Source of the DNA: Thermodesulfobacteriota bacterium
GTDB lineage: Bacteria; Desulfobacterota; Desulfobacteria; Desulfobacterales; Desulfosudaceae
Assembly (NCBI GenBank): GCA_040753795.1
Contig: JBFMDX010000001.1
Coordinates: 434,001 to 498,000, forward strand
Direction: 5' to 3'
Length of the DNA stretch: 64,000 nt
Made by a program: the position numbers and the translations under genes. Within the stretch, counting starts at the first letter, position 1, and the number at the start of each line of letters is the position of its first letter. Below are positions 39,834 to 64,000 of this stretch, piece by piece. Below the pieces are notes generated by a model, which searched no databases, was not told where the DNA came from, and worked only from the letters and a program-made list of their open reading frames with translations.

Positions 39834-39872
39834 GATGCCTCACCTCTTCCCGGAAGTGCGAAAGGACGACGT

Positions 39873-40709: not shown

Positions 40710-40723
40710 AGGGCAATTCGGGA

Positions 40724-41575: not shown

Positions 41576-41767
41576 TTTTTGATGCTCCTTTCCGGAATCC
41601 GCGGGCGATAAGGGATATTACCGCTTCAGCATGTTATTAGCACGTTCTTGCAAACTCAAGTTTTTTTGTGTTACACAGGGCCATAACAGATAATCATTGT
41701 CTGGTCCCGCGGCCGGATTTGTCCGGACCGGGCCGTATTATTTTGATTTCATATATTTTTTGGCGCA

Positions 41768-43779: not shown

Positions 43780-43828
43780 CCGGAAAATTTTATGAAATAC
43801 CCGGGGTCATCCCGCTGAAGGATACCTT

Positions 43829-44701
43829 ATGCCAAACGTAAGCGTCATTATACCAACCTATAATCGGGCCTTTATTGTCAGGCAGAGCATCGATTCGGTC
43901 CTGCAGCAGACCTACGGTGATTATGAGATCATTGTGGTGGATGACGGATCGACGGATAATACCCGGGAAATAATCGAGTCTTACGGCGATAAAATCAGTT
44001 ACGATTATAAGGAAAACGGGGGCATTTCCAGCGCCAGAAACCGCGGGCTTGAAATCGCCGGCGGCGAGTATATCGCCTTTCTGGATTCGGATGATTTCTG
44101 GAAACCGGACAAGCTGCGAAAACAGATGGCCTTCTTCGGTGAGCATCCGGAATACGGCATGGTCGCCACCCGCTGCCTGACCAACACAGTGGACCGGCAT
44201 TTTGAGACCGTTTCGATCAATAAAAGAAGGCGGTACGGGAAATCCGGGTGGGTCTACAAGGATCTTTTTTACAGGAATTTTATCCGCACCTCATCGGTGG
44301 TCGTGAGAAGAGAATGCTTCGATCAACTGGGCGTGTTCGATGAAAGCCTGCCCCGGTGCGAGGAAATCGACATGTGGCTGCGGATCGCGAAAAAATATCA
44401 GATAGGCTTTATCAACGATATTCTGACCGTTTATACCCGAAGGCCCATCGAGATCCGGCAGGACAGCATCAAGGGACGGAAGAACTGGATACGGGTGCTG
44501 GAAAAGAATTACGACCCCGAGTTGATCCCCCGGGCGGTGTACAATAGACGAATGGCCCGGATTTATGCCCATATGGCTGAAAATCTTTTTAAAAAAGGGA
44601 AAAAGCAGGAGGGGGAAGCCCTTCTCCGGCAGACCCTGTCGCTTCACCCTTTTAATTTCAGGGCCTGGAAAAACCGTTTTTTCCTTTTAATGAAGGGCTG
44701 A
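43829..44701 (+). CDS. GT2 glycosyltransferase
   Basis: A 290-residue GT-A enzyme: NVSVIIPTYNRAF, IVVDDGSTDNTREI, ISSARNRGLEIA, and FLDSDDFWKP as metal site, then RCEEIDMWLRIAKKY. The C-terminal 50 residues are TPR-like. It is typical of O-antigen and core glycosyltransferases. Confidence 0.9.
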   Translation: MPNVSVIIPTYNRAFIVRQSIDSVLQQTYGDYEIIVVDDGSTDNTREIIESYGDKISYDYKENGGISSARNRGLEIAGGEYIAFLDSDDFWKPDKLRKQMAFFGEHPEYGMVATRCLTNTVDRHFETVSINKRRRYGKSGWVYKDLFYRNFIRTSSVVVRRECFDQLGVFDESLPRCEEIDMWLRIAKKYQIGFINDILTVYTRRPIEIRQDSIKGRKNWIRVLEKNYDPELIPRAVYNRRMARIYAHMAENLFKKGKKQEGEALLRQTLSLHPFNFRAWKNRFFLLMKG

Positions 44702-44795
44702 TCCGGCCGCCGGATCAAAGGCCCCCGGTTATCTTCCAGACGAAAGAAATACCCGGAAGTTGAAACCTACCGATAAAAACAACAACCCCGCCCGG

Positions 44796-45827
44796 ATGAC
44801 GATACTCGTTTTCTGCCCGAACTGGGTCGGTGATGTGGTCATGGCGACGCCGGTCTTTGACTGTCTGCGCCGGAATTTCCCGGAGGCCGGAATTTTCGGT
44901 GTGATCCGCCGTTACGCCGCCGGTGTTGTCAAGGACGGTCCCTGGTTTGACGGGATTATTGAACTGGAAGACAAAAGCACCGGCGGCTTTATCAGAAGCG
45001 TCAAATTTCTCAGGTCCCTGCGGCCGGATATGGCCATTGTGCTGCCCAATTCTTTCCGGTCGTCCCTCCTTGCCCTTCTCTCCGGGGCCTCAAAACGATA
45101 CGGGTATAAAAGAGATCTGCGCTCGCTGCTGTTAAGCGGCGGCCCCCGGCCGGTGATGGATGAAAAGGGCATCAAGCCGGTTCCCATGGCGGATTATTAT
45201 ATGGCCGTCTGCCATCATCTCGGGCTGGCCCCTTCCTCTTCACTGAAACCGCAACTGTTTTTTTCCGAAGACGTCAGGAAAAAAGGGGACGGTCTGTTTG
45301 ACGGCTATGGCATCCGGCCGGGCGAGATGGTCATCGGGATCAATCCCGGGGCGAAATTCGGCGCCTCCAAGTGCTGGCCAGCGGAAAATTTCGCCCGGCT
45401 GGCGGAACGGGTCAGTGAAAAATGGAACTGCCGGATTCTGCTGCTGGTCGGTCCCGGCGAGGATGAAATCGCGGCCTCCATCCTGGCGTCAACCCGGGCG
45501 GCCATCATCGACACCGGTCCGGACCGGGTGGACCTGTCCCTGTTGAAATACGTCATCAGCCGGCTGGATCTTCTGATCACCAATGATACCGGCCCGAGGC
45601 ATTACGGGGTGGCCTTTGACATCCCCACGGTCGTCATCATGGGGCCCACCAATCCGGATTACACCGCCGCCAACCTGGAGAGAACCGTTGTCCTGCGCAA
45701 GGACCTGGACTGTTCCCCCTGCCACGAAAAACAATGCCCCCTCGGTCATCACCAATGCATGACCCTGATCACCCCAGAAGAAGTCCTGGATGCCAGCGTC
45801 CGGCTGCTGGCGCAGACGCATAAGTAG
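44796..45827 (+). CDS. waaF: LPS heptosyltransferase II (GT9)
   Basis: The 343-residue protein is a GT9 ADP-heptose:LPS heptosyltransferase of WaaF type: ILVFCPNWVGDVVMATPVF at the start, INPGAKFGASKCWPAENFA and a C-terminal TNDTGPRHYGVAFDIPTVVIMGPT. ATG 44796 gives the normal start close to the first motif; TTG 44760 is the other possibility. WaaF adds the second heptose of the inner core. Confidence 0.9.
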   Translation: MTILVFCPNWVGDVVMATPVFDCLRRNFPEAGIFGVIRRYAAGVVKDGPWFDGIIELEDKSTGGFIRSVKFLRSLRPDMAIVLPNSFRSSLLALLSGASKRYGYKRDLRSLLLSGGPRPVMDEKGIKPVPMADYYMAVCHHLGLAPSSSLKPQLFFSEDVRKKGDGLFDGYGIRPGEMVIGINPGAKFGASKCWPAENFARLAERVSEKWNCRILLLVGPGEDEIAASILASTRAAIIDTGPDRVDLSLLKYVISRLDLLITNDTGPRHYGVAFDIPTVVIMGPTNPDYTAANLERTVVLRKDLDCSPCHEKQCPLGHHQCMTLITPEEVLDASVRLLAQTHK

Positions 45828-45969
45828 CGAAGGCTTCAGCCTTCCAGATGCTGGTGGAGAGTTTCACAGGCTGTCCAATAACCTGAAGCAATCGTCATTC
45901 CGGACGAGTCCGACAACGTCGGACGAGATTCGGAATCCAGAAAACGGGCAAAGCCCGGGGAAAACCGCG
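45828..45969. repeat. Short hairpin and TCATTCCGG-type palindrome fragment
   Basis: GAAGGC-TTCA-GCCTTC (45829-45844) follows the waaF stop without a T run. Then comes GTCATTCCGGACGAG ... GGAATCCAGAAAACGGG, a degenerate extragenic palindrome like that at 21775. Confidence 0.4.
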
Positions 45970-47133
45970 TTAAACTCCGGCTGTAGGATGGACTGGGGTT
46001 GCCTGCCGTATTTTCCGCATGACGTCTTCCGCCTGAATAGCGCTCATGCAGATCATGTTTTTGCCCGGACATTTCCGTTTGTAACAGGGCGCGCAGGGGA
46101 CATTTGCGCTCACGACCAGATGCTCGCTGCCGAAGGGGGCGGTTCTTTCCGGTGAGGTGGGCCCGAAGATGGTCACATAGGGCGTTCCCACGGCGGCGGC
46201 AATATGGGCGGAACCGCAATCGGGCCCGACCGCGATCGCGGCTTGTTTCAATACCGCGGCCAGTTCCAGGATAGAGGTCCGCCCCACCAGATTGATCAGC
46301 CGGGCGGAGTTGACTCGTTTCTCCAGATCACATGCCATGGGGTATTTCTCCTTGGTGTCCACCATGACGATGTTCCAGGGGGTTGTCGTTATCATCTCCT
46401 GTATTAAGCGGGAATAACCTTCAACGGGCCATTCCTTGGAAACCCAGCTGGAGCCGAGAACGACGGCCGCGTAGGGGGACGTAATCCCGGACAGGATTTC
46501 GGACGCCAGGGAGGAAAGCCCGGGGCCGGAGAAGCCGAAATCAAGGGCCCCGGATTCAAAGAGCGACCGGGATTGAGACGGCGCATAGGCCGGATGACAT
46601 TCCAGGTATTCCGTGAATTTGAGATAATGAAAGAGCTTGGGATAAAACTTATCCTGGGCGGGAATATGGATATTGTTAAACAGCCAGTTCCCTTCCTTGG
46701 CGTCGTCGGGATGAAAGCCGATTCGATATCTGGCCCCGGAAAGGAAGGAAAACAAGCCGCTTTTGAAATGGCGCTGGAGATCGAGGACACAATCAAAATG
46801 GCGCTGCCGGAGTTCGCGGAAGATATCCTTCAATCCCCCCTGTTTCCAGTTTGTCCGGTTAAAAAACAGAACCTGGTCGATAAGCGGGTGATAGGTGACC
46901 AGTTCCCGGCATTTGGGTTCGACCAGCCAGGATATGGACGCGGCCGGGAACTTTTTTTTGATCTGGGACACCACCACCAGCCCCCGGGCCACGTCCCCCA
47001 GGGAGCCCATGAGGATGATGAGAAAAGACGGGTTTTCCGGCAGCCGGATCGGCGGTTGCGGACCGGCCGCGGAGCCGTTGTCGGTCTTCTGATCGCGAAT
47101 GTCGTTTAGGTGCCCTGACGGTTCTGTTTTCAT
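45970..47133 (-). CDS. GT9 heptosyltransferase-family protein
   Basis: A 387-residue GT9 enzyme: FLIILMGSLGDVARGLVVVSQI, VVLGSSWVSKEWPVEGYSRL, VGPDCGSAHIAAAVGTPYVTIFGPT. It is more distant from WaaF than the enzyme at 44796 and may add heptose or another sugar. It lies convergent with waaF. The N-terminal 35 residues before the fold look disordered. Confidence 0.88.
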   Translation of the reverse strand: MKTEPSGHLNDIRDQKTDNGSAAGPQPPIRLPENPSFLIILMGSLGDVARGLVVVSQIKKKFPAASISWLVEPKCRELVTYHPLIDQVLFFNRTNWKQGGLKDIFRELRQRHFDCVLDLQRHFKSGLFSFLSGARYRIGFHPDDAKEGNWLFNNIHIPAQDKFYPKLFHYLKFTEYLECHPAYAPSQSRSLFESGALDFGFSGPGLSSLASEILSGITSPYAAVVLGSSWVSKEWPVEGYSRLIQEMITTTPWNIVMVDTKEKYPMACDLEKRVNSARLINLVGRTSILELAAVLKQAAIAVGPDCGSAHIAAAVGTPYVTIFGPTSPERTAPFGSEHLVVSANVPCAPCYKRKCPGKNMICMSAIQAEDVMRKIRQATPVHPTAGV

Positions 47134-50847: not shown

Positions 50848-50919
50848 TGCAATTGCTCTTCTTCGTAACGGAAAACCCGGTCGATGAGCGGATACCGGTC
50901 TCTGGCGTCCAGAAAACCG

Positions 50920-50948
50920 TTGACACACCGGACCGGCCTTGTTATAGG
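50920..50948 (+). promoter_or_regulatory. Sigma70-type promoter in front of the GT9-like gene
   Basis: TTGACA (50920-50925), 17 bp, TATAGG (50943-50948). The segment CCGGCCTTGTTATAGGT and the following ATG match the promoter at 32877. Confidence 0.7.
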
Positions 50949-50997
50949 TGATGACCAAAAAAGCAACTACCCTGATTCCTTATTTTTTTTGTTGAAT

Positions 50998-52485
50998 ATG
51001 AATCCACGATCCTATACAGCCAGATGGCATCAAATCAAAGGAAAGACGCCGGATCCGGACGCGATTGAACACCTTTCCCGTCAGGTGGCCCTCTCTTTTA
51101 TGGATGCCTGCCTATATCGCGACCGGTATGAACAGTCCTGCATCGATCTGTTGTGCGAAATGGCCACGGCCTTTGACCCGGGCAGCGGCCTGAACGCCAG
51201 GGCCACGTCGGCCCTGTTCGATATCGTCGTCGAAGGCTTGTGCGATGAGTTCGAGGATATGCAGACGGAAATTTACGACCGGGTCATGTGCCAGATCGTC
51301 TCGTTCTGCCGGAAGACGGCCCGCGGGAAGAAACTGGACGAAACCCTGGACGGTTTCGGCCTGACTTCCCTGGAAAGCCTGCTCGGCCGGGCCGCCGGGC
51401 TGCGCAAATCTTTCCCCCTGAAGGAAGAAATAGCGGAACCGGAAAAAATAATGTTTCTTTCCCGGGTGACCTTTGGCGCGGATATCGCCATTACCAGCGT
51501 GCTGATGCAGCGGTTCGCGCAACTATTCCCCGGGGCGGAGCTGGTATTGCTCGGCAGCGCCAAGCTGAACGGAATCTTCGGCGGGCTGAAGAACCTGAGA
51601 ATCCGAGAGCTTTCCTATCCCCGGCGGGGCGGTCTGATCCAGCGGTTTTCAGCCTGGTTCTCGGCCCTGGCGGCCGTGGAGGAGGAGACCGGGGGCCTGG
51701 GCGGCCGGTTTTTGGTGATCGATCCGGATTCGCGGCTTTCCCAGCTGGGCATTCTGCCCGTGGCCGACGCCGGTAACTATTTTTTCTTCAACAGCCGGCA
51801 TAACGGCAACAGCACCCACCGCCAGTCCATGTCCGAACTGGCTAACGAGTGGGCCAACCGGGTTCTGCCGGAATCGGGTTTCTGTCATCCCGGGGTGTGG
51901 ATCGATGGGCCGTCGACAACTGCGGCCGGTGATATGCTGGGCCGCCTGCGGCGCACCGCCGGGCATATCGTCACCGTCAACCTCGGCGTGGGGGGGAATT
52001 CCCGGAAACGCCTGGATGACGATTTCGAATTCGATCTGCTGGCTTCCCTTCTTTCCGAAAAAGGCACCGCCGTTATTCTGGACTGCGGGGCGGAAGCCGA
52101 AGAAAAGGAACGCGCCGGCCGGCTTCTGACAGCGCTCGGGGAAAAGGGCTTTCCGACCGCCCACGCGGACATGAGCCGCCCGGCGGATTTGACGGAACCG
52201 GGAATCGTCAGCATTGTCTGCGGCATCGGGGAGATCGCGGCCCTGATTTCCGGCAGCGATGAATTCATCGGGTATGACTCCGCCTGCCAGCACATCGCGG
52301 CGGCCGCGGGAATCCCGTCCTGCACCGTGTTTGCCGGTTCCAATAACCCCCGCTTTGTCCGGCGGTGGCAGGCCAGGGGAAAAGCCGTCAGCCGCGTCAT
52401 TCATGTGGATAATCTGAGCCGGGATCGGATGTTCGACAATGCCGATATCATCGCCCGCATCCATGACGCCAGGAACCGGGCGTGA
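50998..52485 (+). CDS. GT9-like protein with long N-terminal helical domain
   Basis: The C-terminal half (residues about 180-480) resembles heptosyltransferase-type GT-B folds: IMFLSRVTFGADIAITSVLM, VTVNLGVGGNSRKRL and GYDSACQHIAAAAGIPSCTVFAG, close to the GT9 donor-site motif. The N-terminal 170 residues are all-helical and unrecognised. ATG 50998 is chosen. The next gene starts inside its stop codon (GTGA), so they are coupled. Confidence 0.75.
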   Translation: MNPRSYTARWHQIKGKTPDPDAIEHLSRQVALSFMDACLYRDRYEQSCIDLLCEMATAFDPGSGLNARATSALFDIVVEGLCDEFEDMQTEIYDRVMCQIVSFCRKTARGKKLDETLDGFGLTSLESLLGRAAGLRKSFPLKEEIAEPEKIMFLSRVTFGADIAITSVLMQRFAQLFPGAELVLLGSAKLNGIFGGLKNLRIRELSYPRRGGLIQRFSAWFSALAAVEEETGGLGGRFLVIDPDSRLSQLGILPVADAGNYFFFNSRHNGNSTHRQSMSELANEWANRVLPESGFCHPGVWIDGPSTTAAGDMLGRLRRTAGHIVTVNLGVGGNSRKRLDDDFEFDLLASLLSEKGTAVILDCGAEAEEKERAGRLLTALGEKGFPTAHADMSRPADLTEPGIVSIVCGIGEIAALISGSDEFIGYDSACQHIAAAAGIPSCTVFAGSNNPRFVRRWQARGKAVSRVIHVDNLSRDRMFDNADIIARIHDARNRA

Positions 52486-54014
52486 AGATACTTTTTATTT
52501 ACCCCAATGCCGGCTCCCAGCTGGGATTCAACTACGGCCTGGCCCACATGAGCGCCGTCCTCAAGCAGGCCGGCCACGAGGTCAAGCTCCTCCATCTGGC
52601 CGAGGAACTGGCACCGCTGCCGGATGAAGCCCAACTGCGGAACCTGGTCAGCGCATACGACCCCGGGATCATCGGTTTTTCCGTGGTGACCAATCAGTGG
52701 CACCTGGCCGAGCAGACCGCCGCCTGGATCCGAAAACAGATTTCCGTTCCCATGGTCTGCGGCGGTATTCACGCCACGGTGGCGCCGGAGCAGGTGCTGG
52801 GTTCGGGCCTGTTTGATTATGTCCTGGCCGGAGAGTGCGATACCGCTTTTCTCGAACTCGTCGACACCATCGCCAAGGGTGGTGACCCGTCCGGCATCCG
52901 CAACCTGGGTTTTTTAAAGGACGGCGCGGTTCACCTGAACCCGGTCCGTCCCTTTCCCGACCTGGCTTCCCTGCCCATGAAAGATTACACCATTTTCGAC
53001 TTCCAGAAGCTGATCGACGAAAAGAACGGCTGGGTCGGACTCATGGCCTCCCGGGGATGCCCCTTTCAGTGCACCTACTGCTTCAACCATATCATCGTCA
53101 AGAAGTACCGGGCCGACCTGGACTGCGGTTTTTCCAAACTAAACTACATCCGGCATTTTCCTGTCAGCGCCATGATCGCGGAAATCCGGTACCTGCTTGA
53201 ACATTACACCGGCATCAACATGTTCATTTTTGACGACGACCTGTTTACCTTTGACGCGGACTACCTGGCGGAATTCTGCGCGGAATACCGCAAGATTTGC
53301 CGGATTCCGTTTGTGGTCAACGCCCACGTTCACTTCTTCGACCCCAGGCGGGCAAGGTCACTGGCGGACGCCGGATGCCGGATCGTCAAGTTCGGCCTGG
53401 AGAGTGGAAGTCCGCGCGTGCGCAAAGAGATCATGCGCCGGCACACCAGCAACAAAGACATTGCCGCGGCCATTCAATACGCCAAAGACGAAGGGATGCA
53501 CACCTCCTGTTTTGTCATGATCGGGCTTCCCGGGGAAACAGCCGAAAATGTCATGGAGACGATCCGGCTGCTGGCCGAGGCTAAACCCGGCCGGTTCCGG
53601 TGGACCTTCTTCTACCCTTATCCCGGCACGGAAGCCTATGCCATCAGCGAACGGGGCGGTTACATCGATTTTGATAAAAAAGAAAGTCTGGTCAATTTCA
53701 CGGACGCCACCTGCCTTGATTTCGGCCCGGAGCAGAACCTGTTTCTGCAGAAGGTCGGCCGGGTCATGCCCTGGTTCGTCAACGCCTGGTCGGATCTGGA
53801 CTGCGCGGATGTTTACCGCCAAAAGGTCGACGAGTTGCTGGCGTTAGACGAAACTTCCTGGAAGGCGGTCGGAGACACGCTGACGGCTGAGGATAAACGC
53901 CTTTCGCAAGAGATGGTTCAATCAGGCAAGACCCATTACGCCATCAAGTATAACCGGTTCATGGGCGTCATCTCCGACTATTTTCTGGGAGAAGAAAAGC
54001 AGCCGAGACCATAA
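52482..54014 (+). CDS. B12-binding-type radical SAM enzyme
   Basis: A 510-residue protein with an N-terminal cobalamin-binding-like domain (residues about 1-140, ending near GGIHATVAPEQVL), the radical SAM cluster motif SRGCPFQCTYC (near residue 190), DDDLFTFDADYL and a FGLESGSPRVRKEI motif. This class performs methylations or rearrangements on unactivated carbons. A GTG start overlaps the previous stop. Linked to the GT9-like gene by context, so a glycan or lipid is a plausible substrate. Confidence 0.88.
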   Translation: MKILFIYPNAGSQLGFNYGLAHMSAVLKQAGHEVKLLHLAEELAPLPDEAQLRNLVSAYDPGIIGFSVVTNQWHLAEQTAAWIRKQISVPMVCGGIHATVAPEQVLGSGLFDYVLAGECDTAFLELVDTIAKGGDPSGIRNLGFLKDGAVHLNPVRPFPDLASLPMKDYTIFDFQKLIDEKNGWVGLMASRGCPFQCTYCFNHIIVKKYRADLDCGFSKLNYIRHFPVSAMIAEIRYLLEHYTGINMFIFDDDLFTFDADYLAEFCAEYRKICRIPFVVNAHVHFFDPRRARSLADAGCRIVKFGLESGSPRVRKEIMRRHTSNKDIAAAIQYAKDEGMHTSCFVMIGLPGETAENVMETIRLLAEAKPGRFRWTFFYPYPGTEAYAISERGGYIDFDKKESLVNFTDATCLDFGPEQNLFLQKVGRVMPWFVNAWSDLDCADVYRQKVDELLALDETSWKAVGDTLTAEDKRLSQEMVQSGKTHYAIKYNRFMGVISDYFLGEEKQPRP

Positions 54015-54042: not shown

Positions 54043-55176
54043 TCATTTGCCGATCATAAAACTCCACAGCACACCGGCGGCAATGGCCGAACCGATGACG
54101 CCGGAGGCGTTGCAGGCCATGGCATGCATCAGCAGATAATTGTGGGGATCCTCGTGCCGCCCGACCAGATGAACCTCGCGGGCTGATCCGGGCACGGCGG
54201 ATACCCCGGCCGCTCCGAGCAGAGGGTTGATTTTTTCCTTCATGAACAGGTTCATGATCTTGGCGAACAGGACCCCGGAAGCCGTGGCCACGGAAAAGGC
54301 CACCGCGCCCAGGAGAAAAATGCCGATGGATTTCGGCGTCAGGAAGACATCTCCCTGGGTGCTGGCGCCCACCGTCATGCCCAGGAAGATGGTGGCGGCG
54401 TCCATGATGACCGTCCGGGCGCTCTGGGCCAGGCGCTCCGCCTGACCGCATTCCTTGAGAAAATTGCCGAAAAAGAAGGGACCCAGCAGGGGGATGGAGG
54501 CCGGCGCCAGAAAACAGCAGAGCATGATGGCGATGACGGGAAAAATCATGCGCTCGTTTCTGGATACGTCCCGCAACTCGGGCATACGGATGAGTCGCTC
54601 CTTGCGGGACGTGAGCAGCCGCATGATGGGCGGCTGAATGACCGGTATCAGGGCCATGTAGGAATAGCCGGCGATGGCGATGGGCCCGATCAGGTGCGGG
54701 GCCAGCTTGGCCGTCAGGAAGATGGAGGTGGGGCCGTCGGCGCCGCCGATGATGCCGATGGAGGCGGCTTCCTGCGGGGTAAATCCGAGGCCGAGGGCCG
54801 CCAGCATCGTAAAGAAAACGCCCACCTGGGCGGCCGCGCCCAGCATCATCAACTTCGGCTGGGACAGCATGGAGGAAAAGTCGGTCATGGCGCCCAGGCC
54901 AAGAAAAATAATGGAGGGATAAATACCCGACGTAACCCCGAAATAGAGGTAGTGCAGGACACTGTTGTTCTCATAGATGCCGATCCCGAATCCCTTGAAA
55001 AAAGGGATATTGCCGATCACCACACCCAGTCCGATCGGAATCAGCAGCAGCGGTTCGTATCCTTTTACCGCCCCCAGATAAATAAAAAAGCAGGAGACCA
55101 CCAGCATGATCAGGTGGCGGTAATCGGCCAGCGCGAAACCGGTGTTGCTCAAAAAATTCAGTGCCAGATCAAGCAT
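54043..55176 (-). CDS. Sodium-translocating decarboxylase beta subunit (OadB/GcdB type)
   Basis: The 377-residue protein has about ten membrane helices and the family motifs GLGAMTDFSSML, IGIIGGADGPTSIFLTAKLAP (the sodium-site region) and NASGVIGSAIAAGV near the end. The beta subunit couples decarboxylation of a carboxybiotin intermediate to sodium export. No alpha or biotin subunit is in the window. The gamma-like gene lies 41 bp upstream on the same strand. Confidence 0.94.
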   Translation of the reverse strand: MLDLALNFLSNTGFALADYRHLIMLVVSCFFIYLGAVKGYEPLLLIPIGLGVVIGNIPFFKGFGIGIYENNSVLHYLYFGVTSGIYPSIIFLGLGAMTDFSSMLSQPKLMMLGAAAQVGVFFTMLAALGLGFTPQEAASIGIIGGADGPTSIFLTAKLAPHLIGPIAIAGYSYMALIPVIQPPIMRLLTSRKERLIRMPELRDVSRNERMIFPVIAIMLCCFLAPASIPLLGPFFFGNFLKECGQAERLAQSARTVIMDAATIFLGMTVGASTQGDVFLTPKSIGIFLLGAVAFSVATASGVLFAKIMNLFMKEKINPLLGAAGVSAVPGSAREVHLVGRHEDPHNYLLMHAMACNASGVIGSAIAAGVLWSFMIGK

Positions 55177-55217: not shown

Positions 55218-55682
55218 CTACCGTCGCCATCTGAACAGGCCGTTGCCTTCAGAAACAAGCATGCCGGACTCCCGCAAGGCCTTGATGGTCAGATGGGGAT
55301 GGGGCAGACCGTTTTCCTCGGCAGCCCTGTAAACCTCGGAGAGCTGAAAAACGTCTCCCAGGGGATCGGTCAGTGATTTGTAAACGGTCGCCAGATCATT
55401 GATACCCGCTGCCAGAAGATTGTCCGGCTGCGATTTGACGGTCTGTTTTTTCCGCGGCTGAACCGGCGCTTTTTTGAGCAGACTGCCGATCTTTTCCAGC
55501 AGAGCGACCAGCCTGGGCACCCGGGAAACGATCAGCGATAGAATTGCCAGGCCGGCTATATCGATGGAAATCCCCAGGGCTGCGAAGGCCCAACCGTTGC
55601 TATTGGAAATATTCTGAAAACTGAACAGATCGAACACTCCGCCCTCCACTTCAGTAAGTAACGTCAAATAGAATAGATTCAT
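55218..55682 (-). CDS. OadG-like small membrane subunit with winged-helix-like tail
   Basis: The 154-residue protein starts with one membrane helix (WAFAALGISIDIAGLAILSLIVS), then a basic linker (KKAPVQPRKKQTV), consistent with a decarboxylase gamma chain. Residues about 90-154 (SLTDPLGDVFQLSEVYRAAEE, then LTIKALRESGMLV) look like a small winged-helix module, which ordinary OadG lacks. It precedes the beta subunit gene. Confidence 0.7.
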   Translation of the reverse strand: MNLFYLTLLTEVEGGVFDLFSFQNISNSNGWAFAALGISIDIAGLAILSLIVSRVPRLVALLEKIGSLLKKAPVQPRKKQTVKSQPDNLLAAGINDLATVYKSLTDPLGDVFQLSEVYRAAEENGLPHPHLTIKALRESGMLVSEGNGLFRWRR

Positions 55683-55761
55683 AATTATATTTTTCAGGTT
55701 ATGTCAATAAAAACTTTAGAAAATGAATTCGTGTTTTAACATCCAACGGCGCCTGAAGTGT

Positions 55762-55790
55762 TTGACATGCCGTCCGGCCTCGGCTAAATT
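55762..55790 (+). promoter_or_regulatory. Sigma70-type promoter for the radical SAM operon
   Basis: TTGACA (55762-55767), 17 bp, TAAATT (55785-55790), 74 bp before the first gene of the operon. Confidence 0.7.
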
Positions 55791-55864
55791 TAATAAAATA
55801 TGGCAACCAAAATGAATCGCGTGATTTTTCACCCGCCTTCGATACGGAAAGAACATAACCGCTG

Positions 55865-57346
55865 ATGAGACTGGCCCTGGTCTTTAATCCATTCAAATAC
55901 AAAGTGCACGAAGAGAATCTCCGTATTGTGCAGAAGTATTTCGGCCTTTTCCCGCCGCTGAGTATTTCCTGGGTGGCGGCCATCGCCCGGCGAGCCGGCC
56001 ACGAAGTGACCATCATCGACGCCAGAACGTTGAAACTTTCCAAAGAAGAAGTGGCTGCCCGGCTGGAGGCGTTCGCGCCGGACATCATGGGCTTTATGAT
56101 GACCACCTACATGTTCCAGGACACCCTGGAATGGATTCGCTATTTTAAGAAAAGGTTTGATATCCCTGTGCTCATCGGTGGTTATAATTTACGGGTTTAT
56201 CCGGAAGCGTCCCTGAGCCACCCGGAAATCGACTATGGCGTGATCGAACACGCCCTGGAAACGGTGCCTCTTCTTTTCGCGGCACTGGAAGGACGAGGAA
56301 GCTTGGAGGACGTGCCGGGACTGGTCTATAAAAAGGACGGGGCCATTGTCAAGAATCCGCCCCGGCCGGTCATGTTTGAGGACTTTCCCAGTCCCGCCCG
56401 GGATCTGCTGCCCAATGATCTGTATGCGGAGTTCCCCACCGAGAGAAAGAATTTCACGGTCATGGTGACCAGCCTGGGGTGCCCCTATGGATGCAGCTTC
56501 TGCGAGGCCGGAAGAACGCCCTATAATCCGAGAAGCCCCATGACCGTGGTTGACGAAATGCAGGAGTGTTATGACCGGTACGGCATCCGGGAAATCGATA
56601 TCTTCGATTATTCTTTTACGGCCGACAGAAAACGGACCATCGCCATCTGCCGGGAGATGAGAAGCCGGAAGCTGGACCTTCTCTGGGCCTGCCGGTCGCG
56701 GATTGACATCGACCGGGAACTGCTGGAAGAGATGAGGCTGGCCGGGTGCGGCCGGATATACTACGGTATTGAATCCGGCTGCCAGGAGATCCTGGACCGG
56801 GTCAACAAGGGGATCACCCTGGATCAGGTCCGGGAAACGGTGCGACATACCCGGAAGCTGGGAATGAAGGCCCTGGGATTTTTCCTGATCGGCGCTCCCG
56901 GGGAGACGGAACGGACCGTGAAACAGACCGTCAGGTTCGCCCGGTCCCTTGACCTGGAATATGTCCAGTTTTCCAAGTGTCTGGCCAAGCCCCTGACACC
57001 GCTGTGGGAGCAGATGAAGCAGGAGACCGGGCGGGACTACTGGGAGGACTGGGTGCGCGGATTGGAGCAGGATCGCCCTCTGCCGCGACCCTGGACGGAA
57101 TTGACCGAAGCCCAGGTGGACCGCCTGTCCAAATGGGCGTATGTGAACTATCATTCCCGGTTCCGGTTCCTGGTCCGGTCCACGCTGCAGGTCAGATCGT
57201 TTTCGGAGTTCAAGAGAAAGCTCCTGGGGTTTCTGGAGATGGTGTTCAGCCAGGAGGACGTTTCCAGGGGGGATGACGCCTTTGTCGCCTACAACGAGAA
57301 TTCCCGGCGGCTGGATTTTTACAAGAAAATCGCAAAATACAAATAA
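55865..57346 (+). CDS. B12-binding-type radical SAM enzyme
   Basis: The 493-residue protein has the N-terminal cobalamin-binding-like domain, a radical SAM motif SLGCPYGCSFC (near residue 205) and a YYGIESGCQEILDRV region. The N-terminal domain lacks an obvious DxHxxG, as often in this class. First gene of a run with 9-44 bp gaps. Confidence 0.88.
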   Translation: MRLALVFNPFKYKVHEENLRIVQKYFGLFPPLSISWVAAIARRAGHEVTIIDARTLKLSKEEVAARLEAFAPDIMGFMMTTYMFQDTLEWIRYFKKRFDIPVLIGGYNLRVYPEASLSHPEIDYGVIEHALETVPLLFAALEGRGSLEDVPGLVYKKDGAIVKNPPRPVMFEDFPSPARDLLPNDLYAEFPTERKNFTVMVTSLGCPYGCSFCEAGRTPYNPRSPMTVVDEMQECYDRYGIREIDIFDYSFTADRKRTIAICREMRSRKLDLLWACRSRIDIDRELLEEMRLAGCGRIYYGIESGCQEILDRVNKGITLDQVRETVRHTRKLGMKALGFFLIGAPGETERTVKQTVRFARSLDLEYVQFSKCLAKPLTPLWEQMKQETGRDYWEDWVRGLEQDRPLPRPWTELTEAQVDRLSKWAYVNYHSRFRFLVRSTLQVRSFSEFKRKLLGFLEMVFSQEDVSRGDDAFVAYNENSRRLDFYKKIAKYK

Positions 57347-57355
57347 AGCGGATCC

Positions 57356-58882
57356 ATGCGAATCACTTTTGTCCACCTGGGCCGGGAACACCTCGGCCTT
57401 GAATACCTTTCCAGCATCGTCAGGCGGGAGGGGCATCAGGTGTCCCTGGCATACGATCCGGGTCTGTTCGGCCCGGAGGACAATGTGTTCTGTGTTCCCG
57501 CGTTGGAACGACTGTTTGACCAGCGGCGGCAGGTGCTTGCCGCCATCCGGGAGTCATCCCCGGATCTGATCGCTTTTACCGTTTATACCGGCACCTACCA
57601 GTGGGCCCGGGGCATAGCCGCGGAAATCAGGCGATCGCTGAAAGTGCCCATTGTTTTCGGCGGTATTCACGCCACCCTGGTTCCGGAAGTCATTATCGCC
57701 GACAGGAATGTCGATTTCGTCATTCAGGGTGAGGCGTTTGCGGCTTTCCCGGACCTGGTCGCGGTCCTGGCTTCCGGCCGGGGCCGCCTGGATGACGTGA
57801 GCAACCTCTGGTTCAAGCGCAATGGGGTTGTCATGAACAACCCGCTGGCACCGCCCCTGGCGGACCTGGATTCCCTGCCCTTTCCCGACAAGACGCTGTT
57901 TGAAAACGACGTCAATTATGTCGACGATTACGTGATCATCACCAGCCTGGGTTGCGTTTTTAATTGCAGCTACTGCTGCGAAAGCACCCTGAACCGGTTG
58001 TACCGGCATCAATATTATCGCCGCAGGAGCGTGGCCTCCGTCATGGCGGAACTGACCGTTATGAAGGCGCGGTACCGCTTTAAAGAGGTCATGTTCAATG
58101 ACGCTCTTTTTTTTACCGACCGGGAGTGGCTGCGGCAGTTGATGGCCGCATACCGGGAAAAGATCAGCGTGCCATTCCGGTGCTTCGGCAAGGTGTCTCA
58201 TCTTGATGACGACATCTGCCGCATGCTGGCCGATGGCGGGTGCTACTGCATTGAATTCGGGATGCAGACCTGGAATGAAGACCTCAAAAGAAGTGTGCTG
58301 CACCGCAACGAGACCAATGCCATGGCCCTGGAGGCGTTCGGCCGCTGCGACCGCTTCGGGCTGCGCTATGACATCGACCATATTTTCGGGCTGCCGGGGG
58401 AAACGGTCCGGGATCACGTGGACGGGCTGCGCTATTATAGCCGACTCAAACGGCTCAACCGGATCAAGTGCCACAACCTGACCTGCTTCCCGAACACCAC
58501 CATGGCGCGGTATGCCCGTGAGCATAACGTGCTGGGCGCGGAGGATGAAGACAAACTGAAAAAAGGGGAGATCTCGGATTTCTTCCACGGCGACGCCATC
58601 CGCGACGGACGGCTGAAAAAGGCCAAGGACCTTTTTTCAAAATGTTATAAACTGCTGCCGATCATACCGGATATTATCGTGCGGCGGCTGATCCGGTCAG
58701 GTGACCTCCGGGTGTTTGATCTTATCCCCAAACCGATTGTTATCATCGGGCAGCTGCTGGTGGCCGTTAAAGGCCGGGATTACCGCTATCTCGTTTATCT
58801 CAAATATTACCCGCTTAGAATAAAACGATCCTTCCGGAGAAAATGGAGCGGAAACCGGAAAGTGGCAAAAAGTGACGGTTGA
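57356..58882 (+). CDS. B12-binding-type radical SAM enzyme
   Basis: 508 residues; cobalamin-binding-like domain ending near VFGGIHATLVPEV, radical SAM motif SLGCVFNCSYC (near residue 200), EFGMQTWNEDLKR and FGLPGETVRDHVDG. The C-terminal 60 residues are basic and hydrophobic and could contact the membrane. Nine bp after the previous gene. Confidence 0.88.
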   Translation: MRITFVHLGREHLGLEYLSSIVRREGHQVSLAYDPGLFGPEDNVFCVPALERLFDQRRQVLAAIRESSPDLIAFTVYTGTYQWARGIAAEIRRSLKVPIVFGGIHATLVPEVIIADRNVDFVIQGEAFAAFPDLVAVLASGRGRLDDVSNLWFKRNGVVMNNPLAPPLADLDSLPFPDKTLFENDVNYVDDYVIITSLGCVFNCSYCCESTLNRLYRHQYYRRRSVASVMAELTVMKARYRFKEVMFNDALFFTDREWLRQLMAAYREKISVPFRCFGKVSHLDDDICRMLADGGCYCIEFGMQTWNEDLKRSVLHRNETNAMALEAFGRCDRFGLRYDIDHIFGLPGETVRDHVDGLRYYSRLKRLNRIKCHNLTCFPNTTMARYAREHNVLGAEDEDKLKKGEISDFFHGDAIRDGRLKKAKDLFSKCYKLLPIIPDIIVRRLIRSGDLRVFDLIPKPIVIIGQLLVAVKGRDYRYLVYLKYYPLRIKRSFRRKWSGNRKVAKSDG

Positions 58883-58915
58883 AAAGGGGAAGGCCGGTCT
58901 CTGGTTGAAACGCAT

Positions 58916-59902
58916 ATGAAACGGAACAAGATGATTCAGGCCGCCGCTGCCGTCGCGCAGGCGAAACTGCTGAAACGGAACCGGCCACTGGTTGTCGGCT
59001 GGGCTATTACCCATCAGTGCAACCGGAAATGTGCTTATTGCGCCATCTGGCAGCGGCCGCGGCAGGACCTGCCGACGGCCACGGTCTTCAGAATTGTGGA
59101 CGAACTGGCCGCTTCGGGGACTTTGCGGATATCCTTTACCGGCGGGGAGCCGCTGCTCAGAGAGGACATGGGAGATATCATCCGTTACGTTCGGGAAAAG
59201 GGGATAGAAACGCGTTTGAATTCGAACGGATCCCTGGTGAAGGAAAAAATCGACAATCTGCGCGGTCTGGATATGCTGCTCCTGAGTTTGGAGGGCCCGG
59301 AAGCGATTCATGACGCCATCCGCGGGCCGGGATCCTTTCAGGAGGTGCGGGAGGCCATGCGGGCGGCCAGGGGTCAGGGAGTACCGGTCGGATTGGCCAC
59401 GGTACTGGCTTCCACCAACCTTGACGCCGTGGAATTCGTTCTGGATGGGGCCCGGGACGCTGGCTGCCGGGTCATGTTTCAACCGGCAACTCGACTGCGG
59501 CTGGGTGGTCGGGCGCCCAATGAGCTGGCGCCCCCGGTCGGTCCCTACCGTGAAGTGATTACCGGGCTGATCGCCCGGAAAAATGCCGGAGACCCTGCCA
59601 TCGCCAACTCCCTGACCGGTCTCCGGCACCTGATCCGCTGGCCCGATCCGGTCCGGATGGCCTGCGCCAGCGGCCGGATCTCCTGCCGGATCGAGCCGGA
59701 CGGACAGGTCCTGCATTGCAGCCGGGGCGCCGCAGGAGCCACCCCCGGAAATTGCGCCGAGGCCTCTTTCCGGGAGGCGTTTGAGCGACTCGGGCCGATG
59801 GCTTGCGACGACTGCTGGTGCGCCGGGCGGGTGGAACTCAACCTGGCGTTCTCGTTCAGTGTGCCGACGATTTTGAACCAACTCAAAACCCTGGTGAGGT
59901 AA
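58916..59902 (+). CDS. Radical SAM enzyme with SPASM-like cysteine tail
   Basis: The 328-residue protein has the radical SAM motif THQCNRKCAYC (near residue 40), SFTGGEPLLRED, and LLSLEGPEAIHD. The C-terminal part has a cysteine-rich region (CASGRISCRI, HCSRG, CDDCWC) like SPASM/twitch auxiliary clusters. It lacks a B12 domain. Many such enzymes modify peptides, but context here is glycan/lipid. Confidence 0.87.
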   Translation: MKRNKMIQAAAAVAQAKLLKRNRPLVVGWAITHQCNRKCAYCAIWQRPRQDLPTATVFRIVDELAASGTLRISFTGGEPLLREDMGDIIRYVREKGIETRLNSNGSLVKEKIDNLRGLDMLLLSLEGPEAIHDAIRGPGSFQEVREAMRAARGQGVPVGLATVLASTNLDAVEFVLDGARDAGCRVMFQPATRLRLGGRAPNELAPPVGPYREVITGLIARKNAGDPAIANSLTGLRHLIRWPDPVRMACASGRISCRIEPDGQVLHCSRGAAGATPGNCAEASFREAFERLGPMACDDCWCAGRVELNLAFSFSVPTILNQLKTLVR

Positions 59903-60850
59903 TTGCCCAGTCTGCTGACCAGAAGATTACGCGTATTCGTTCCACTGGCCGTTTCGGCGTTGATCCTTTATCTGCTTTTGGTAAAGATCGATACCGGCAG
60001 GATCGTGGAATCACTGAGGACCTGCGATATCCGGCTGGTGGGGCTGGCCGCGGTGATTTCTCTTGGCATCAATGTCCTTTTCGGCGCTGAAAAATGGCGG
60101 CGGATCCTGTCCGCGTTGGGATGCGACCTTCCATACCGGGAGGTGCTCGCGATCCGGACCGGCTGCATCCCCTTTAAAATCCTGCTGCCTTTCAAGTCGT
60201 CCGAACTCCTCAAGGCCTACTATCTGGACCGGAGCAGAAAACTTTCTTTCACCCGCGCGACCAGTTCACTGATCCTGGATAAGGCCATGAACCTGCTGGT
60301 GCTGATTCCGCTGGCGATCATCGGGCTGTCCGTCGTTGACATCCCCTTTATCAAGGCGGCCCTGCTGTTGATCCTGTCGCTGATTTTACTGGCGGTTTAT
60401 TCCGACCGGTTCCGCCAGGGGCTGGCCGTCGTCGTCGCCGGAATCGTTCCCCGCCTGCATGGAACCGTCAACGGCCTGTTGAGCGGTTTCGCGGAGGTCC
60501 GGGGATCGGAAAAGACGATCCTGATCGTTTATTCCCTTGTTTATCAGCTGTCTGAATTCGTGAATACATTCATCCTGCTCAAGGCCGTGGGTGTGGCGGC
60601 CCCGTTCGCCTATCTCATGGTCATCGTCCCGGTGATAATGATAATTAACAATTTGCCGATTACGGCGCTGGGACTGGGGACGCGGGAGATGGCCATCGTC
60701 TATTTCCTCAAGGATTTCGGCCCCTCCGCCTCGCTTTTCAGCGGCGGTATATTGATTTCACTGGTTGAGTACGTGCTGCCGGTACTTGTCGGGATTTTGT
60801 TCATACGGTCCTTTCAGCGTTATGCTATGATAAAAAAACAAGCCAGTTGA
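59903..60850 (+). CDS. UPF0104/AglD-like membrane protein (lysylphosphatidylglycerol-synthase TM type)
   Basis: The 315-residue protein has about eight membrane helices with ALGLGTREMAIVYFL and GINVLFGAEKWRRIL, characteristic of the UPF0104/LPG_synthase_TM family, whose members work with lipid or glycan carriers, perhaps as flippases. It starts at TTG 59903 immediately after the previous stop, with GGTGAGG before it. Confidence 0.85.
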   Translation: MPSLLTRRLRVFVPLAVSALILYLLLVKIDTGRIVESLRTCDIRLVGLAAVISLGINVLFGAEKWRRILSALGCDLPYREVLAIRTGCIPFKILLPFKSSELLKAYYLDRSRKLSFTRATSSLILDKAMNLLVLIPLAIIGLSVVDIPFIKAALLLILSLILLAVYSDRFRQGLAVVVAGIVPRLHGTVNGLLSGFAEVRGSEKTILIVYSLVYQLSEFVNTFILLKAVGVAAPFAYLMVIVPVIMIINNLPITALGLGTREMAIVYFLKDFGPSASLFSGGILISLVEYVLPVLVGILFIRSFQRYAMIKKQAS

Positions 60851-60863
60851 CGCTAATGCCAAG

Positions 60864-62261
60864 ATGAAAATTATTCTAATCAACCCCCGTTCCCGGCGGC
60901 CGGAGGAAATCCAGCAGAAATGCTTTGCCCCGGTCAACCTGCTCTACCTGGCATCATCCCTTCTGCGCGACGGATATGAGGTCGAAATCATCGATGCCAA
61001 CGCCTTCGGTTTTTCTGATGACGAGGTCGTCCGGCAGGTCGCGGAGAAAAATCCGGGCCTGATCGGCATTTCCCTGCTGTCGGAAACCATGATTCAGACC
61101 TTCCGCCTGGCCGAAAGGCTGAAAGCCGCCTGCCCCCGGGCGAGGCTCATGCTTGGCGGACCGCATGCCAATGCCATGCCGGAGGCCGTGTTGAAGGAGT
61201 TTACCGCCGTGGACCTGGTCCTTACCGGGGAATGTGAGCAGAGCCTGGTGCACCTCGTCCGGGCGTTGACGCATGGAGAGGATATCCGTCAGGTTCCGGG
61301 ACTGTATTGGCGGCAGGAAGGGACCGTCGCCGGCAGCCCGGCGGCCGATCCGATCAGCGATCTGGACCTGCTGCCGCCGCCCGCCCGGCATCTGCTGTCG
61401 GCGGCCTATCGGGCCGATAAGTATTATTTGATCCTGGAGAAAGAGCGACCCATGGAGACGCTGCTGACCAGCCGGAGTTGCCCTTTCAAGTGCGCCTTCT
61501 GCAGCAATATCCCCGGTACCTTCAGGGCCCGGTCGCCTGAAAACGTGCTGGAGGAGATCGTCGAGCGTTACCGTTCCGGGATAGCCGGTTTTGATATCGC
61601 TGACGCGAACTTTACCCATGACCCCGTTCGGGCGATGCGGATTTTTGACCTGATCATCAGGGAAAAGGTCAGAATTTCTTTCCGATTTAAAAGCCGGACG
61701 TCGGTTATCAGCCCGGAACTGGTCAACAAGGCCAGGCGGGCCGGGGCCTATCTGGTTTCCATGGGCATGGAATCCGGTTCCCAGGAAATATTGCGCCGGA
61801 TGAACAAAAAGACCCGGATCGAAACAAATATTGAAGCCTGCCGGACGGTGATGAAAGCCGGACTGAAATTAAACACCGGCTGGATCATCGGTTTCCCGGG
61901 GGAAACCCGGGAGACCATCAGGGAAACGACCCGGCTGATCCTTGCCGTGAAGCCGACCACCGCCAGCATCCTCCGTCTGATCCCCTATCCCGGGACGGCT
62001 GTTTATGAAGAAGCCAGAGCGGAAAACCGGTTGATCGGGGACTGGTCGGTGAACCGTTCCTTTACTCCCTGGATCAAGCTTCCCTGGACCGACTCCCTGT
62101 CTGATCTGGAAAGGGAGACGCAGCGCGTTATCAACAGGGTGTATCTCCGGCCTTATTATTTCAAACTGTTTGCCGGGGAGATTCTGAAAAACGCCAATGG
62201 CATGCTGGCCAGATACGCGGTCCAGGAGGCGATCAAGGCCGCTCGCGGAGTATGGACATAA
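60864..62261 (+). CDS. B12-binding-type radical SAM enzyme
   Basis: 465 residues; cobalamin-binding-like domain (residues 1-130, GGPHANAMPEAVL), radical SAM motif SRSCPFKCAFC (near residue 205), MGMESGSQEILRRM and IGFPGETRETIRE. Third such enzyme in the operon, clearly diverged from the others. Confidence 0.88.
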   Translation: MKIILINPRSRRPEEIQQKCFAPVNLLYLASSLLRDGYEVEIIDANAFGFSDDEVVRQVAEKNPGLIGISLLSETMIQTFRLAERLKAACPRARLMLGGPHANAMPEAVLKEFTAVDLVLTGECEQSLVHLVRALTHGEDIRQVPGLYWRQEGTVAGSPAADPISDLDLLPPPARHLLSAAYRADKYYLILEKERPMETLLTSRSCPFKCAFCSNIPGTFRARSPENVLEEIVERYRSGIAGFDIADANFTHDPVRAMRIFDLIIREKVRISFRFKSRTSVISPELVNKARRAGAYLVSMGMESGSQEILRRMNKKTRIETNIEACRTVMKAGLKLNTGWIIGFPGETRETIRETTRLILAVKPTTASILRLIPYPGTAVYEEARAENRLIGDWSVNRSFTPWIKLPWTDSLSDLERETQRVINRVYLRPYYFKLFAGEILKNANGMLARYAVQEAIKAARGVWT

Positions 62262-62305
62262 AACCGTGCCTGCCGGCACTACTGCATTATAGTCGTGAAT
62301 TTTCC

Positions 62306-64000
62306 ATGACGAATACCATATCCACCAAGTCCCGCCTGCCGGTGGTCGTCCTGCTGATGGCCGTCAGCCTGGGGCTGTACGCCAACACCCTGACCAACGC
62401 GTTTGTATGGGATGACCTTCTGTCCGTGGCGGAGAGCCGTCATGTCAGGGACATCGGCAATATCCCGCGGTTCTTCTCCCCGCGATACTGGAATGAGTCG
62501 CATCCTTACCCCGGCCAGTACCGGCCCGTGCGGATGATCTCCTTTACGCTGGACTATTTTTTCTCAAAGCTGAACCCGGCCGGATACCGGGTGACCAACG
62601 TTCTGCTCCATGCCGCCAACGTTCTGCTGGTATTTTATCTGGTCATCCTGGCGGTGGAGAGCGGCAGCGGGGGGGATCCGTTTGGCCGGAGGCGCTGCCT
62701 GGAGGGGACCGCGTTCCTAACGGCGCTTTTATTCGCCGCGCACCCGATTCACACCGAGTCGGTCAATCTGATCAAGAATCGTTCGGATCTGCTGGTGATG
62801 GTGTTTTGCCTGATATCGCTGCTGCTGTTTATCCGTCACCTGTCCGCGGCCGGCCGGATTCGCTCCTGGCTGATGCTGGCCGGGGCCTGGTTCTGTTTCA
62901 TCCCGGCGGTGCTGTCCAAGGAGATGGCCTTAAGCCTGCCGGGGGTGGCGGCGCTTTACGCGGCCTGTTTTCTTTCCGGTGACCGGAGGAAAAAGGCGCT
63001 GATCCGGGTGATCCCATACGGGATGATCATCCTGGGCTATTTCTGGTTCATGCATGCCTTTATCCGGCCCGGAGACCCGTTGCCACCGGTGGCCGTCCTG
63101 CCAGCAGGCGCCATTCAACGGGTAATGACGGTTATCAAAACGCTGGGCATCTATTTTCGCATGCTGCTGTTCCCCTTTCCCCTGGTCCTGGAACATCCCT
63201 TTTCTATTCCCGAAACGCTGCTGGACCCGGGTATTCTGACGTTTCTGCTGCTGCTGGCGCCGACCGGGATCCTTGCCGCACGGTCACTGTTCGGCAACCG
63301 GATCGTCCTGTTCGCAATCGGCTGGATCTGGCTGACCCTGGTGCCGGCGGCCAATATCGTCTACGTGGCGGCCCGGCCCATTGCCGAACAGCGGTTGTAC
63401 ATTCCTTCGCTGGGGTTCTGTCTGATGCTGGGGTATGGCCTTCAGTCACTGGCATCCCCTCGCTCCGGCCGGTCGGCCCGAAGCCTGGCGGTCTTGATCG
63501 GCGGTATCATTTTTATCCTCTATGCCGCCGTTGCCGTGCAGCGAAACCGGGAATGGCGAGATGAAATTACCCTTTACACCCGGTCCCTGGCCGAAAACGC
63601 CGCCAGCCCCAGGATTCAATACAATCTCGGCAATGCCCTGTGCCGGGAGCAACGGTATGAAGAGGCCGTCGGCCACTACCGGGCGGCGTTGCGCCTGGTG
63701 CCGGACTATCTGGATGCCCATTACAACCTGGGAATTACGCTTTATGGACTGGGAAAACACGAAGAGGCGATCGGCCATTACCGGCAGGTCCTGGCCCGGG
63801 AACCGGGAAATGTAGATGCCCTGAACAACCTGGGCGTGGCGTTGCATGCATCCGCCCGTCTGGACGAAGCCTTGGGGGTTTTTACGGCCGCCTTGAAAAT
63901 TTCTCCGGGTGATATGCAGGCCAACTGGAACATGGGGGATCTTCTGGTCGATCTGGGCCGTTCCCGGGAAGCCGTCGGTTATTACACGTCAGCCCTGAAG
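62306..64000 (+). CDS. TMTC/DUF1736-like membrane protein with TPR repeats (runs off the right edge)
   Basis: At least 565 residues. The N-terminus has a membrane helix followed by FVWDDLLSV, the acidic pair typical of this GT-C-related family, and QYRPVRMISF. About ten further helices follow to residue 420, then at least four TPR repeats (NLGNALCREQRYEEAVGHY and onward). It may transfer a sugar from a polyprenyl-phosphate donor outside the cytoplasm. Last visible gene of the radical SAM operon. Confidence 0.82.
   Translation, partial: MTNTISTKSRLPVVVLLMAVSLGLYANTLTNAFVWDDLLSVAESRHVRDIGNIPRFFSPRYWNESHPYPGQYRPVRMISFTLDYFFSKLNPAGYRVTNVLLHAANVLLVFYLVILAVESGSGGDPFGRRRCLEGTAFLTALLFAAHPIHTESVNLIKNRSDLLVMVFCLISLLLFIRHLSAAGRIRSWLMLAGAWFCFIPAVLSKEMALSLPGVAALYAACFLSGDRRKKALIRVIPYGMIILGYFWFMHAFIRPGDPLPPVAVLPAGAIQRVMTVIKTLGIYFRMLLFPFPLVLEHPFSIPETLLDPGILTFLLLLAPTGILAARSLFGNRIVLFAIGWIWLTLVPAANIVYVAARPIAEQRLYIPSLGFCLMLGYGLQSLASPRSGRSARSLAVLIGGIIFILYAAVAVQRNREWRDEITLYTRSLAENAASPRIQYNLGNALCREQRYEEAVGHYRAALRLVPDYLDAHYNLGITLYGLGKHEEAIGHYRQVLAREPGNVDALNNLGVALHASARLDEALGVFTAALKISPGDMQANWNMGDLLVDLGRSREAVGYYTSALK

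Follow-up and report, generated by a model that had tools for sequence, protein, structure and literature searches.

The window analysed here, a stretch of 64,000 nucleotides from contig JBFMDX010000001.1 of a Thermodesulfobacteriota bacterium (assembly GCA_040753795.1), carries at positions 55865–64000 four radical SAM genes, three of them with a B12-binding domain, a UPF0104 gene, and a TMTC-like TPR gene, arranged head to tail. These genes, designated A, B, C, D, E, and F1 in their order on the forward strand, belong to an operon whose conserved core consists of A and B, often together with C, D, and GT-C-type genes. A and B are linked and co-occur, C, D, and the GT-C-type genes are more loosely linked to A, and the set is present in multiple phyla. 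Its core seems to have passed between bacterial phyla that are only distantly related. Taken as a whole, the operon may be a mobile system for the tailoring and transfer of a lipid-linked sugar, a reading that we consider evenly poised, with each of its steps less sure than the whole.

In terms of domain content, the products of genes A (55865..57346, 493 amino acids), B (57356..58882, 508 amino acids), and E (60864..62261, 465 amino acids) all matched both PF02310 (B12-binding) and PF04055 (Radical_SAM) above the cut-off and contained a CX3CX2C motif. By these domains they are cobalamin-type radical SAM enzymes, and their use of cobalamin is predicted. Gene C (58916..59902, 328 amino acids) encodes a radical SAM protein matching PF04055, gene D (59903..60850, 315 amino acids) a flippase-like membrane protein of the LPG_synthase_TM/UPF0104 family (PF03706 and TIGR00374), and gene F1 (62252..64270, 672 amino acids, crossing the window edge at 64000) a TMTC-like protein with a hydrophobic, GT-C-type N-terminal domain followed by TPRs. 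The Pfam matches of the six genes had E-values of 1e-12 to 9e-35, so chance is not a concern, and the gaps between the genes, from A to F1, were 9, 33, 0, 13, and −10 nucleotides. The CX3CX2C motifs all differed (CPYGCSFC in A, CVFNCSYC in B, CNRKCAYC in C, and CPFKCAFC in E). The gene set, its order, the tight spacing, and the four distinct motifs had been proposed by a first-pass annotation made from the sequence alone, and all of them held. When the same contig was read onward, as that annotation had suggested, the operon was found to extend 4.4 kb beyond the window edge, with two further TMTC-like genes on the same strand. These are the F1 paralogues F2 (listed start 64216, likely ATG at 64273, end 66642) and F3 (66621–68444), after which a gene on the opposite strand ends the operon. 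The full operon thus comprises eight genes in 12.6 kb, with every gap at most 33 nucleotides, and the single TMTC-like protein of the first-pass annotation, correct for the window, becomes three. Two other proposals stood only in part. The single promoter corresponds to a possible sigma-70-like match upstream of A (TTGACA-17-TAAATT, 10/12, at 55762..55790 on the forward strand), which is a consensus match only, and such matches were not enriched (six in 55600–64000 versus 4.3 ± 1.8 in shuffles). The C-terminus of C is Cys-rich and SPASM/twitch-like by eye, but Pfam SPASM (PF13186) was absent among its matches at an E-value of 1e-3.

Protein A represents a tight family. Matches at E ≤ 1e-110 fell into two bands, of 57–77% and 39–51% identity, and once these had been seen, a line at 57% or more by BLASTP was set to define true A. 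The 25 other true-A loci, 57–77% identical to the A of the window, came from Omnitrophota, Elusimicrobiota, a Desulfobacterales metagenome-assembled genome (MAG), and the window's own phylum, so that 26 loci including the window were compared; the fetched loci of the lower band (L078, L085, and L099–L102) were left out. In searches that scored the top few candidates of each genome, the upper band, here at 58–77% identity, was represented in 12 of 285 Omnitrophota, eight of 247 Elusimicrobiota, and, with the window's genome included, four of 395 genomes from its own phylum. Within the Omnitrophota sample, the search output for the A gene of locus L029 (G060:C52:18316-19776) and for A or A-like frames in genomes G887, G780, G837, and G921 showed one to three in-frame stops (TGA, TAA, or TAG), which may reflect sequencing errors, pseudogenes, or recoding. 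Lower-band proteins often have frames of 730–840 amino acids, and in L078 the extra ~270 amino acids are C-terminal.

B was located within 100 nucleotides of A at 14 of the 26 loci, preceding it in L088, and outside the window the B proteins of these adjacent pairs were 34–61% identical to that of the window. It was on the contig of A at 20 loci, six of which had it farther than 100 nucleotides away (L075, L091, L092, L094, L028/L024, and L029/L025); in the last two, A and B came from separate fetched stretches of one contig. Near-identical pairs (L081/L098, L082/L083, L076/L077, and L094/L096) were counted separately in the locus counts and in the distance test described below, and when they were merged, A and B were adjacent in 11 of 22 groups. 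At none of the six excluded lower-band loci did B stand next to A, whereas in the lower-band genomes G652 and G962, a B-like gene adjoins the A-like gene. When genome contigs were scanned with B, near relatives were detected in the Desulfobacterales MAG (L023, 62%), an Elusimicrobia MAG (L024, 54%), and Candidatus Tantalella remota of the Omnitrophota (L025, 46%), and remoter ones (24–26%) in two Planctomycetota/Brocadiaceae MAGs (L026 and L027). The best B match in 57 other relatives sampled was 34%, and G096 and G443, which belong to the same order as the window and lie outside that sample, carry A with B at 41–43%.

The other genes were less constant. Best hits within 12 kb of A, weak ones included (the C of L095 is 25% over 174 residues), placed C at 10 and D at 11 of the 26 loci. 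At 15 loci, the contiguous run with A included a GT-C-type gene, recognised as TMTC-like by BLASTP or through Pfam PMT_2. Only two other loci examined, L023 (62%) and L076 (45%), had an orthologue of E at 40% or more. The complete order A-B-C-D-E was observed in L023, with identities of 77, 61, 58, 51–61 (D being split into two frames), and 62%. Other arrangements were A-B-D-C-x-F-F in L081, A-B-D-E in L076, A-B-F-F in L082, D-F-F-F-A-B-F-F in L086, and A-B-D-PMT in L079. The first-pass annotation had suggested a search for homologous clusters and had named a lack of co-conservation as refuting its proposal; loci were found in several phyla, and A and B are co-conserved, but E much less so.

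The association of A with B was also evident in statistical comparisons. The distance matrices of A and B were correlated (r = 0.80 over 19 pairs, computed without L078, L094, and L099), and none of 5000 permutations reached so high a value. In the Omnitrophota sample, A was present in seven of the eight genomes having B at 40% or more, against 12 of 285 overall (hypergeometric 2e-10), and in the Elusimicrobiota sample in five of five, against eight of 247 (8e-9); the 40% line was drawn after the hits had been seen, and these probabilities treat related genomes as independent. In G854, the Omnitrophota genome with B in which no A was seen, B starts 145 bases from the contig end, so A may lie beyond the contig. 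C was likewise enriched in the Omnitrophota sample, occurring in 21 of 31 genomes with A or a lower-band homologue, against a background of 34 of 285, and in seven of the 12 with true A. The searches for B and C in these samples, like that for A, scored the top few candidates of each genome.

A maximum-likelihood tree was built from 35 sequences, comprising 32 A and lower-band sequences and three E sequences as the outgroup; it is a single build that drew a long-branch warning for the E outgroup, L085, and L100, with those rows kept. The A of the window paired with that of L023 (100/97) inside a clade holding five Omnitrophota sequences (100/99), whereas the A proteins of two genomes from the window's own order (L076 and L077) grouped elsewhere, with one Omnitrophota sequence and another sequence of their own phylum (99/99). 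The labels required 10 changes on this tree, 4 being the minimum possible. Because the A of the window nests among Omnitrophota and apart from its own order, the pattern would be explained most simply by horizontal transfer between phyla.

None of the radical SAM proteins reached the cut-off of any NCBIfam model among the best 25 for each, and all scores were far below. The best model was HpnJ (TIGR03471) for A (155.8 bits versus a cut-off of 577.6), ApyD for B (109.4 versus 750), PTO1314 for C (106.1 versus 306.05), and BchE (TIGR02026, cut-off 481.35) for E (183.2); E scored 151.3 against HpnJ. The other BchE scores were 135.9 for A, 104.6 for a fifth enzyme at 52482, and 57 for B. A bacteriochlorophyll pathway was rejected on these scores, all of them below the cut-off, and a hopanoid pathway on the HpnJ scores together with the lack of a squalene-hopene cyclase match in this genome, which is 99.76% complete. 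That cyclase is present in two of the 23 A-carrying genomes searched, neither of them the window's. The first-pass annotation, which recognised no named pathway of this composition, is upheld to that extent.

Structural comparison offered a lead to the chemistry of A. Its model was good (pLDDT 83.4), and the closest solved fold was that of AprD4 (Z 33.2, root-mean-square deviation 2.7 over 404 residues), which was also the top PDB sequence match, followed by MgmA (Z 29.8) and by OxsB and TsrM (Z 28–29). A is, however, only 24% identical to AprD4 and below the cut-off of the AprD4 model (NF033070, 105.6 of 500). AprD4 is a sugar 1,2-diol dehydratase that acts with its reductase partner AprD3 in deoxygenation at C3 of the sugar of paromamine (PMC5461906). 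HpnJ forms the cyclitol ether in the step that follows bacteriohopanetetrol (BHT) glucosamine, in which an aminosugar is attached to a lipid (PMC12583986). Both act on sugars, and one on a lipid-linked sugar, which may hint at the chemistry of A as a lead and not a proof, A being related to HpnJ through its best profile but far under the cut-off and in a genome without a hopene cyclase match. Within the family, the fixed positions of the motif GGYNxRxYP in the Rossmann domain are kept in at least 95% of the 26 sequences. E has GGPHANAMPE at the same place, so that this conserved segment differs between the two.

The membrane-associated proteins could be assigned to families with differing clarity. 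D belongs to UPF0104/LPG_synthase_TM by both of its models (PF03706, 121 bits versus a cut-off of 33.4; TIGR00374, 56 versus 43.2), and no PDB sequence matched it at E ≤ 1. F1 and F2 carry, ahead of the TPRs, all five motifs given for TMTCs in PMC7801869 (DD, YRP, RxD, KE, and ExxxY), and F3 carries DD, YRP, KE, and ExxxY. In the hydrophobic N-terminal domain, the C-terminal TPRs, and these motifs, the F proteins resemble the TMTC O-mannosyltransferases of the GT-C/PMT clan. They differ in that the arginine of ERxxY is moved by one (AEQRLY), SHKS directly before YRP is absent, and no TMTC-specific Pfam model was among the matches listed for them; moreover, they are bacterial and stand in tandem copies.

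The genes linked to A point to surface glycans. From 117 otherwise unassigned genes in the runs, 44 were picked by hand and scanned with Pfam, and 22 of these were of surface-glycan type: GT9 (4), GT2 (6), GT4 (2), PMT_2 (5), DUF2079/GT87, a Wzy_C O-antigen ligase, a DegT aminotransferase, a sulfotransferase, and, in L024, a UbiA gene scoring as a decaprenyl-phosphate phosphoribosyltransferase (253 bits versus a cut-off of 234). The window itself contains, at 32134–47133, three Kdo/WaaP-type kinases, a lipid A acyltransferase, GT2, GT4, and two GT9 genes, a TPR sulfotransferase, and a Wzy_C gene. Because half of the scanned linked genes encode glycosyltransferases and other glycan proteins, we infer that the product is a surface glycoconjugate, and this is the part of the interpretation in which we are most confident. 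The first-pass annotation had proposed multi-step tailoring of a membrane-linked lipid or glycan; the glycan is favoured by the 22 glycan genes and by the tendency of B and, to a lesser degree, of C, D, and GT-C genes to be found with A, whereas the lipid half found little support, the nearest being a PaaK-like ligase and GDSL-type hydrolases in L024. Two further regions of the window's genome are of note. In L107 (G000:C10:12001-27000), four radical SAM genes stand beside the genome's one homologue of decaprenyl-phosphate phosphoribosyltransferase, which at 184.7 bits is below the cut-off. L108 (G000:C17:57001-71000) is a second cluster, in which two TMTC-like TPR genes are joined with B12/radical SAM genes and a C-like radical SAM gene; it is only 23–37% similar to the operon and was counted in favour of a tailoring and transfer system.

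In the mechanism that we propose, A and then B would act in turn on the ring of a sugar bound to a lipid or nucleotide carrier on the cytoplasmic side of the membrane; deoxygenation or dehydration, ring contraction, and C-methylation would all be compatible with their predicted radical chemistry. C and E may contribute additional steps, and the donor synthase would be supplied from elsewhere in the genome. D would move either the loaded lipid or the acceptor lipid to the other side of the membrane, and F1–F3, by analogy, may act outside the cytoplasmic membrane as GT-C transferases that take the sugar from its polyprenyl phosphate while their TPR part holds the acceptor. After the glycoconjugate product, our confidence falls from the GT-C role of F1–F3 to flipping by D and, last, to the sugar-ring chemistry of A and B. 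A bolder version is possible but distinctly tentative: a new class of extracytoplasmic glycosylation in which radical SAM enzymes rebuild a polyprenyl-bound sugar ring, flipping falls to a UPF0104 protein, and bacterial proteins related to the TMTC O-mannosyltransferases of eukaryotes link the sugar to proteins or glycans, with the module passed among Omnitrophota, Elusimicrobiota, and the window's phylum.

Several observations weigh against a tailoring and transfer system of this kind. Pfam and NCBIfam revealed no donor synthase among the operon genes in the window, and at six of the 26 A loci, B was not found in the stretch examined, although for two of the six the contig is just 4.5 or 6.3 kb long. 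The fold scores of A for AprD4 and MgmA differ by just 3.4 Z, and AprD4 is second among solved sequence relatives to CysS for B and to the protein methylase MgmA for E. F1 lacks any glycosyltransferase domain in Pfam; of 20 members of the F family, five matched PMT_2 (best 1.3e-7) and two PMT, F1 being in neither group, and F3 has RxE where F1 and F2 have RxD. The F1 model, made from three sequences, was poor (pLDDT 51.8) and not usable for a fold search, and a profile of 20 F N-termini matched PDB sequences only in the TPR part. The other 22 of the 44 scanned genes, a non-random choice, are not glycan genes and include radical SAM genes, PKD/Ig/HEAT repeat proteins, a symporter, the L024 ligase and hydrolases, and unmatched proteins, and one GT2 group gave AglJ-like and polyprenyl-phosphate-transferase-like matches that were all below the cut-off. 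A polyprenyl-phosphoribose donor common to all A carriers was rejected, because the phosphoribosyltransferase was above the cut-off in just seven of 24 A-carrying genomes, the window's genome reaching 184.7 of 234 bits. Finally, this 4.75-Mb genome has 99 radical SAM matches, so radical SAM neighbours are not rare in it.

That abundance is also compatible with a loose neighbourhood, in which a variable surface-polysaccharide region has gathered tailoring genes that are unrelated, were joined by repeated transfer of the region, and do not act on one molecule. The content of the clusters is very variable, E occurs at three loci only, and many of the best-hit C and D genes, at 10 and 11 of 26 loci, show 22–46% identity. 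Against this explanation stand the adjacency of A and B, which persists from 77% down to 57% A identity, their correlated divergence, and their co-occurrence in two genome samples, and we consider it unlikely, although it is the strongest of the alternatives.

Tailoring of lipids, in which the radical SAM enzymes methylate or couple membrane lipid chains or form rings in them, with transporter or headgroup-enzyme roles for D and F1–F3, is improbable. It draws on the weak matches of A, B, and E, which include HpnJ, HpnR, and rSAM_ladder_B12, on the naming of D's family after lysylphosphatidylglycerol synthase, and on the ligase and hydrolases of L024; however, those profile scores are far under the cut-offs, no other lipid-chain gene was found in the 44 of 117 linked genes scanned, by its score, the L024 UbiA gene is a phosphoribosyltransferase, and the few hopene cyclases lie outside the window's genome. 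We give least credence to modification of a protein or a ribosomally synthesised and post-translationally modified peptide (RiPP) presented by the TPR proteins. MgmA is the second fold for A and the top PDB sequence match for E, and among the weak matches of C are peptide maturases, mycofactocin MftC (94 of 265 bits) being one, but C was under all cut-offs among its best 25 models. The gaps of at most 33 nucleotides leave no space for a precursor gene between the operon genes, although no search for short open frames was made, and the scanned linked genes contained no RiPP recognition or peptidase gene except a rhomboid-type gene upstream in L023.

The system of lipid-linked sugar tailoring and transfer favoured here can be compared with three-component extracytoplasmic glycosylation, described in PMC11127046 (GtrA/GtrB/Gtr and the pentofuranose systems), where a synthase loads a sugar onto polyprenyl phosphate, a flippase turns it across the membrane, and a GT-C protein passes it on. 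The operon shares with it a flippase-like membrane protein and GT-C-like proteins, the window has lipopolysaccharide/O-antigen-type genes, and GT2 or phosphoribosyltransferase genes are present in some of the related clusters. Some three-component systems alter the sugar while it is lipid-linked (DprE1/E2). In contrast to them, the operon has four radical SAM enzymes and no donor synthase, its flippase-like component is a UPF0104 protein and not of the MATE, SMR, or GtrA type, and its GT-C proteins are TMTC-like with TPRs. The string "radical sam" is absent from the main text of PMC11127046, and among the listed titles and abstract openings of open-licence PMC papers, no named pathway of this make-up was found, nor was a name for A and B as a conserved mobile unit. 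The parts themselves are of known kinds.

Upstream of the operon on the same strand, a GT9-like gene (50884–52485) and the B12/radical SAM gene at 52482 overlap by 4 nucleotides (together 50884..54014). The first-pass annotation had drawn attention to the latter as a further B12-type enzyme. The gene is real, but it is separated from A by two frames on the opposite strand, an OAD_beta gene identified with Pfam (Na+-pump decarboxylase beta subunit, 54043–55176) and an open frame at 55218–55682, and it had a match at E ≤ 1e-60 in only one of 23 other A-carrying genomes (34% identity). With these intervening frames and the absence of co-conservation, it was excluded as a member of the operon, and the GT9-like gene was also judged to lie outside.

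These results connect bacterial TMTC-like proteins with a tight radical SAM family, so far uncharacterised, and with the partner of that family, and they offer an enzyme set for unusual sugars that is open to testing. To our knowledge, no donor of the bacterial TMTC-like proteins is known; if the proposed system is correct, these proteins would gain a defined partner pathway. The operon would also be an example of such a module moving between phyla that are known mainly from metagenomes.

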